Below are positions 31,787 to 32,109 of a stretch of DNA of 41,226 nt, piece by piece (within the stretch, counting starts at the first letter, position 1; each line of letters opens with the position of its first letter). Source of the DNA: an uncultured Synergistales bacterium (lineage in GTDB: Bacteria > Synergistota > Synergistia > Synergistales > Aminobacteriaceae); NCBI GenBank assembly GCA_905233725.1, contig CAJOEM010000024.1, positions 1 to 41,226 on the forward strand, read 5' to 3'. A program made the translations under genes and the position numbers. The notes beneath the pieces were generated by a model. The model was not told the origin of the DNA, did no database searches, and saw nothing but the letters and a program-made list of their open reading frames with translations.

Positions 31787-31792
31787 GCGTGC

Positions 31793-31818
31793 TGTGATAT
31801 ATTGTGATAAATGTGATA
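31793..31818. repeat. Three direct repeats TGTGATA
   Basis: TGTGATA occurs at 31793-31799, 31803-31809 and 31812-31818, about one helical turn apart. They overlap the extended -10 of the putative plus-strand RNA and could be an operator (inference). Confidence 0.45.
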
Positions 31819-31822
31819 AAAT
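31814..31822 (+). promoter_or_regulatory. Extended -10 promoter for a plus-strand RNA
   Basis: TGA-TAAAAT gives an extended -10 pointing toward the small peptide gene on the other strand, with a start near 31829. No -35 is recognisable. Confidence 0.4.
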
Positions 31823-31828
31823 GGGAGC

Positions 31829-31976
31829 CACGAAGGGGAATGGTTCCCTTTGATTGGTATATTCACCCGTCTATCGGGATAACAAGTCCAGTATTAACTG
31901 AAACAAGCTAAACAAATAGTAGAGAGCAGTGATGAGGAGATTAACCTTTGCCAGGATATCCCACCACTGCTCTTTT
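31829..31976 (+). ncRNA. Putative antisense RNA to the small peptide mRNA
   Basis: A plus-strand transcript from the promoter at 31814 would run through the 3' half of the minus-strand small gene. It would reach a 9-bp perfect stem (31923-31931 with 31965-31973) ended by TTTT, giving about 148 nt. There is no plausible ORF in it with a ribosome site. The arrangement mimics type I antitoxin RNAs that overlap the toxin 3' end. The 33-nt loop and short T run make the terminator uncertain. Confidence 0.35.
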
Positions 31977-32014
31977 CGAGTGCGTTTACGGTTAGATTTC
32001 TTCTTCTTCGCCAT
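31871..32014 (-). CDS. 47-residue basic/hydrophobic peptide, possible type I toxin
   Basis: ATG 32014 to TAG 31873 encodes 47 residues. The first 14 are very basic (MAKKKKSNRKRTRK). Then comes EQWWDIL, a hydrophobic helix of about 22 residues rich in Leu, Ile, Tyr and Phe (about 24-45), and a final Arg. AAGGTGA at 32025-32019 is a good ribosome site 4 nt before the ATG. It is preceded by its own extended -10 promoter and a 24-codon leaderless ORF. The composition fits small membrane-acting type I toxins or a small membrane anchor. I know no homologue with certainty. The gene is too short to be found by ordinary length cut-offs. Confidence 0.6.
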   Translation of the reverse strand: MAKKKKSNRKRTRKEQWWDILAKVNLLITALYYLFSLFQLILDLLSR

Positions 32015-32018
32015 AACT

Positions 32019-32093
32019 TCACCTTATTTCTGCAGGGTAAGGACTAACCCGTTCAAGGCGAGCCCCCGTCAAACTCACCGGGCACCCCTTCAT
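32019..32093 (-). CDS. 24-codon leaderless upstream ORF / leader of the small peptide
   Basis: ATG 32093 lies 7 nt after TATAAT, at the expected transcription start, and opens a 24-codon frame (MKGCPVSLTG... ending PAEIR). Its TGA is the last three bases of the AAGGTGA ribosome site of the 47-residue peptide. Translation of the leader would thus end on top of the downstream initiation site, suggesting coupling. The segment is also unusually GC-rich and structured: GGTGAG (32079-32074) can pair with CTCGCC (32062-32057). Alternatively TCGCCTT (32061-32055) can pair with AAGGTGA. It may be a regulatory RNA leader rather than a translated gene. Confidence 0.4.
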   Translation of the reverse strand: MKGCPVSLTGARLERVSPYPAEIR

Positions 32094-32100
32094 GGAAAGT

Positions 32101-32109
32101 ATTATAGCA
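32101..32109 (-). promoter_or_regulatory. Extended -10 promoter of the small peptide locus
   Basis: On the minus strand TGC-TATAAT (TATAAT at 32106-32101) is a consensus extended -10, 7 nt before ATG 32093. It is divergent from, and about 40 bp away from, the hrcA promoter. Confidence 0.65.

Follow-up and report, generated by a model that had tools for sequence, protein, structure and literature searches.

In the Bacillus systems txpA/RatA and bsrG/SR4, a convergent antisense RNA overlaps a short membrane-toxin mRNA at its 3' end, and in hok/Sok of Proteobacteria a 5'-3' pairing of the toxin mRNA is released by 3' trimming. The hok/Sok mRNA folds into a translationally inert form, and in aapA/IsoA of Helicobacter pylori and other Epsilonproteobacteria a long-distance interaction between the 5' and 3' ends locks the full-length type I mRNA (PMC6733600). 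In the enterobacterial toxin mRNAs timP (PMC11228461) and tisB (PMC7708055), a pseudoknot in the leader is essential for translation. Type I systems have been reported from Proteobacteria, Firmicutes and Tenericutes and, since 2025, in one cyanobacterial case, a narrow range that the authors think is due to search bias (PMC12390103). We found no report of type I systems from Synergistetes in the open-licence literature, where absence is not proof. Here, we analysed a locus on contig CAJOEM010000024.1 (41,226 nt, in full the window) of an uncultured Synergistales bacterium (Aminobacteriaceae; GCA_905233725.1), in which an earlier note, made from this sequence alone, had proposed a type I-like pair of a short peptide gene and a convergent antisense RNA overlapping its 3' end. 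Our comparisons indicate that this module of approximately 280 bases, the single copy in this rumen Synergistales genome, is probably one member of a new type I toxin-antitoxin family, with an RNA plan like that of aapA/IsoA and timP/tisB and a sequence apparently unrelated to these.

In a simple scan of the single sequence, promoter- and terminator-like sites occur around the module at background frequency. A lone sequence thus proves little, and comparison is needed to settle whether the module is real. While a first search of 60 relatives confined the peptide to its own genus, a profile built from 25 members matches 39 of the 43 genomes of the genus and 29 of the 30 high-quality ones, with 1-8 copies each. 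In the window, the toxin-candidate open reading frame (ORF) codes for 47 amino acids at 31871-32014 on the minus strand (profile match, E 2.0e-16). With a net charge of +7 in the first 20 residues and, towards its C-terminus, a second half that holds a hydrophobic helix (hydropathy 2.08 over 17 residues), the peptide has the basic head and the helix that had been described for it. Across the family, the ratio of nonsynonymous to synonymous substitution (dN/dS) is 0.16 at the C-terminus. As this part lies outside the antisense terminator stem described below, the C-terminal helix appears to be translated and selected. Conservation of the frame, one of the points at which the earlier note had seen its proposal as vulnerable, was examined and the frame is kept. 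Among the 25 members, there is no match above noise to Pfam or NCBIfam, including the Fst/Ldr, TxpA/BsrG, Hok and Ibs toxin models, no PHROG or PADLOC family matches the peptide, and with Rfam 15 the window yields tRNAs alone at the gathering score and chance matches in a relaxed search. A known protein or RNA family was rejected, a weak match to HSP15 among solved structures spanning the basic stretch alone. Judged from these comparisons, a small peptide (shorter than approximately 60 amino acids) with a hydrophobic helix appears to be genuinely coded here.

The putative mRNA for this peptide would start near 32093-32095, downstream of an extended -10 promoter (TGCTATAAT, 32101-32109, minus strand) that was correctly picked out from the single sequence; an exact TATAAT is found in 101 of 108 family modules. 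The strong ribosome site noted at the same time is likewise present as the Shine-Dalgarno sequence AAGGTGA (32019-32025, minus strand), 4 nt 5' of the ATG, and its family counterpart is conserved as GAGGTGA/CTGGTGA. A leaderless short ORF had also been proposed at the 5' end of the mRNA. This was rejected, since other members carry CACGAGG, CAGAGG or GCGAAGG in the place of its ATG (32091-32093), which is thus incidental, and the segment belongs to a structured leader (32019-32094, minus strand). In the predicted fold of this leader, helix P1 encloses hairpin P2, and the loop of P2 pairs with a strand just 5' of the ribosome site to form a pseudoknot, P3. In the window, P2 is GGTGAG/CTCGCC and P3 joins the loop CGGGG with CCCTG. 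The covariance model R1 scores the window leader at 46 bits (E 1.1e-8) and matches 37 of the 43 genus genomes. An unbiased scan of 103 leaders places the strongest covarying pair of columns in P3, and pairs in P1 and P2 are also high. Among 120 distinct leaders, 92.6% of the cells are paired and double changes occur in 16 of 16 pairs, values that none of 500 shuffles reached on any measure, and sliding the partner by 1-3 columns reduces pairing to 32-54%. For P3, 95.2% of the cells are paired, with double changes in 6 of 6 pairs, although P3, unlike P1 and P2, had no part in fitting the alignment; an alignment fitted to no structure gave the same answer.

A conserved, covarying pseudoknot beside a ribosome site is a fold known from riboswitches, and one might speculate that the leader senses a ligand, with the peptide as its regulated product and the antisense RNA as a secondary feature. 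We consider this very improbable. No Rfam family matches, most of the conserved positions in the leader belong to paired stems or to the ribosome site, with helix sequences that change freely between subtypes, and the 5'-3' complementarity, antisense promoter and antisense terminator, to which we now turn, are as conserved as the leader itself.

At the other end of the putative toxin mRNA, a hairpin in the 3' untranslated region (UTR), GGGAACCATTCCCCTTCGTGGCTCCC followed by ATTTTAT (31823-31848, minus strand), is likely the terminator. Comparable hairpins have stems of at least 5 bp in 83 of 102 modules, and stems of 4 bp or more come in 59 different versions. The mRNA begins with nucleotides complementary to the loop of this hairpin, and both sides co-vary between subtypes, which suggests a 5'-3' lock. 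In the window, CCATGAAGGGG (32085-32095, minus strand) can pair with CCCCTTCGTGG in the loop (31828-31838, minus strand) over 11 bp including one G-U. Across the family, the paired variants are GAGGGAG/CTCCCTC, GAGGAAG/CTTCCTC, GAGGGG/CCCCTC, GAAGGGG/CCCCTTC, GAAGAGG/CCTCTTC, GAGAGAG/CTCTCTC and GGAGAGG/CCTCTCC, and another family of the order shows the same relation with GGAGAGGC/GCCTCTCC and GAAGAGGC/GCCTCTTC. At least 6 contiguous Watson-Crick pairs are found in 89 of 97 cognate combinations versus 972 of 6364 (15%) non-cognate ones, and permutation of the modules gave a maximum of 5.97 versus 6.68 observed. The predicted antisense RNA would start inside the same 3' hairpin, so that its first part has the same sequence as the mRNA 5' end. 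The covariation therefore fits both a lock within the mRNA and an antisense RNA that mimics the mRNA 5' end, and does not separate the two, both of which imply pairing with the same 3' loop.

The plus-strand extended -10 reported at 31814 is present (TGATAAAAT, 31814-31822) and stands at the family position for the antisense promoter. Counted within the expected 80-nt stretch, 40-120 nt past the stop codon, 107 of 112 modules have an opposite-strand extended -10, versus 8.4 expected from shuffles. With a match to the peptide profile in 39 of 43 genomes as well, a chance pattern was rejected. The perfect 9-bp stem with a T run also proved to be in place: the putative antisense terminator, AGAGCAGTG...CACTGCTCTTTT (31923-31976, plus strand), lies in the codons for K-E-Q-W ... 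I-T-A-L, with a stem AGAGCAGTG/CACTGCTCT and TTTT. From the positions of promoter and terminator, an antisense RNA of approximately 150 nt is predicted (31829-31976, plus strand), which would span two thirds of the ORF as well as the 3' UTR, and the same prediction gives 150-189 nt across the family. The family terminator sits in the toxin codons K-K-Q-R-R ... A-A-A and leaves a clear mark on them. Its stem has a mean of 9.0 bp versus 6.2 after synonymous recoding, the glutamine codon is CAG in a ratio of 90:5 in the stem versus 29:45 elsewhere, GCT encodes the middle alanine in 77 of 88 cases, and synonymous divergence (pS) is 0.25 in the stem arms versus 0.48-0.55 in the rest of the ORF. Amino acids in the stem also covary, Trp occurring with Thr five times and Arg with Thr once. 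An antisense gene with its own promoter and a codon-embedded terminator is thus predicted to overlap the toxin-candidate gene, and the antitoxin terminator appears to constrain the codons, and some of the amino acids, of the toxin candidate. All four strict tests (TATAAT, a lock of at least 6 Watson-Crick pairs, the antisense promoter and a stem of at least 6) were passed at once by 68 of 104 modules. Upstream of the antisense start in the window (31790-31822), TGTGATA occurs three times in a row, with the last copy alone at the family position.

Altogether, the family has more than 100 copies, often in tandem approximately 320-350 bp apart, and by its sequences it is a large, previously undescribed family of small basic membrane-type peptides with predicted RNA control. 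The leader model or the peptide profile also detects it in further genera of its own taxonomic family and in a second family of the order. Among named genomes, the leader DNA pattern was found on nine contigs, all from uncultured Synergistaceae/Synergistales metagenome-assembled genomes; the titles of eight name goat, sheep, red deer or rumen, and the ninth bears the label Fretibacterium. Arrays with between three and five modules, or more, were seen at G034:C147:5600-7830 (L072), G063:C119 (L083), G062:C126 (L095) and G026:C58 (L093), with mixed subtypes in places and the same spacing of approximately 320-350 bp. Several modules in these arrays lie at contig ends, which suggests that module repeats break assemblies. 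At L085 (631-842), two leader copies approximately 70 nt apart precede one ORF, probably a fossil duplication. In L187 and L198, from different genera, a similar block CTAAGCGATTCGCACAGCTC..CTCTCTGCTTATG splits the ORF in one module and the leader in the other, and is possibly a small insertion element.

The module in the window neighbours a heat-shock operon, and a link to it was rejected: as the 29 other hrcA regions examined in the genus all lack a module, the neighbour is incidental. Carriage by phages or plasmids was also rejected, the viral contigs giving no match to the leader and the plasmids none to the peptide. Many copies, arrays and shifting genomic places would suit a repetitive or mobile short element, similar to a miniature inverted-repeat transposable element or a repetitive extragenic palindrome, in which the ORF and the structures are incidental. 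Such an element would not explain the codon-level purifying selection or the compensatory changes in three separate RNA structures, no shared terminal repeats were noticed when the flanks were inspected by eye, and the divergence is well above that of recent mobile repeats. We therefore regard this explanation as extremely improbable.

The RNA frame is also found with a different peptide. In another family of the order (L229-L231, L240 and L242), the same plan of leader, lock and 3' hairpin accompanies a peptide of the type KKS..ALLGA..RLLEAL; the lock of L242 has 5 bp by strict count. Profile comparison detected no similarity between the two peptide types (hhalign probability 0.5%), so that a common origin is unsupported, with the caveat that such short peptides leave common ancestry possible. 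The loci L192/L240, L194/L229, L195/L230, L196/L231 and L242 share the leader, lock and antisense plan and have a larger 3' region with an extra hairpin, CCCGGCTGAGTT..CTCAGTCGGG. We tentatively suggest, at a little short of even confidence, that the RNA frame (pseudoknotted leader, lock of the 5' end in the terminator loop and convergent, codon-terminated antisense RNA) is an inherited unit across two Synergistales families, on which unrelated toxic peptides can be exchanged.

Based on these observations, we propose that the short mRNA consists of the pseudoknotted leader, the ribosome site and the coding region for a peptide with a Lys/Arg-rich head and one hydrophobic helix. The 5'-3' lock, by concealing the 5' end beside the pseudoknot, would keep the full-length mRNA silent. 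Opening of the lock or trimming of the 3' end would make translation possible, and the pseudoknot, which like its counterparts in tisB and timP is probably a ribosome standby site, would promote translation once the 5' end is free. The antisense RNA, transcribed from a promoter overlapping the 3' hairpin, would pair with the 3' half of the mRNA, resulting in the silencing or destruction of free mRNA. Loss of the antisense RNA would then allow the peptide to be made and to damage the membrane. Sequence comparison shows the RNA frame and the selection on coding, and its evidence for the architecture is good. We infer silencing through the lock, the role of the pseudoknot and the antisense-dependent removal of free mRNA from aapA/IsoA, timP and tisB, and toxicity from the type of peptide and the architecture.

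Purifying selection on the peptide would equally be expected if it were a small membrane protein without toxicity, or if it regulated a membrane complex, with an antisense RNA of the same anatomy setting its dose, and a basic head with one helix suits many small membrane proteins. We nevertheless consider this unlikely. The multicopy arrays and sporadic location (none of the 29 other hrcA loci), the apparent exchange of peptides on the same RNA frame and the putative 5'-3' lock are better explained by a toxin module than by a housekeeping protein. The same goes for the decayed copies: in L153 (341, minus strand), L116, L126, L103 and L101 the peptide carries a frameshift or stop and in several of these the leader is intact, a pattern that would follow if a failure of control makes the peptide harmful.

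Other observations weigh against a type I toxin-antitoxin module. A few copies contain stops or frameshifts, and the window's genome holds one copy alone. Folding energies by themselves do not favour the lock: its pairing probability is 0.62, and 0.66 when the 3' end is shuffled. As these values do not discriminate, a thermodynamic proof was rejected, and the argument for the lock is covariation alone. Furthermore, modules within one genome are related, a kinship by which the shuffle tests overstate significance, and the weight of the argument lies in how many different paired variants there are. Such natural compensatory variants allow a direct test of the 5'-3' lock and the leader pseudoknot, and the covariance model of the leader can be used for further searching. 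A Synergistales family of more than 100 copies would support the view that the narrow range of type I systems reflects search bias.

Among the described systems, aapA/IsoA, whose small peptide is toxic, shares with the predicted plan of the module a small peptide, several chromosomal copies, a cis-overlapping antisense RNA and a 5'-3' interaction, here deduced from covariation in 89 of 97 modules. In aapA/IsoA the ribosome site pairs with a 3' anti-Shine-Dalgarno sequence, whereas here the partner of the extreme 5' end would be the loop of the 3' terminator hairpin, the leader contains a predicted pseudoknot, and the antisense RNA would start in the 3' UTR and end inside the toxin codons. No Pfam, NCBIfam, PHROG, PADLOC or Rfam model matches, the comparison with aapA/IsoA being one by such models and by description. 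A leader pseudoknot in the toxin mRNA is shared with timP/TimR and tisB/IstR1, to which no sequence relation was found; in those systems the antitoxin works via the leader, where TimR disrupts the pseudoknot, whereas here the antisense RNA would cover the ORF and 3' end. The predicted inert mRNA fold recalls hok/Sok, but no Hok model matches, no second reading frame was found, and the antisense RNA would act at the opposite end. Similarly, msoT1/msoA1 of Microcystis is a type I candidate outside the classical phyla, compared here by description alone and from a different, cyanobacterial phylum (PMC12390103). The earlier comparison with txpA/RatA and bsrG/SR4 holds for the convergent antisense RNA over the 3' end, a likeness of plan and not homology that the comparative evidence supports; these are not the sole parallels, aapA/IsoA and timP/tisB being equally close, and the present module differs from the Bacillus systems in its toxin-candidate sequence, a larger overlap covering most of the ORF, a covarying pseudoknotted leader and a putative lock of the 5' end.
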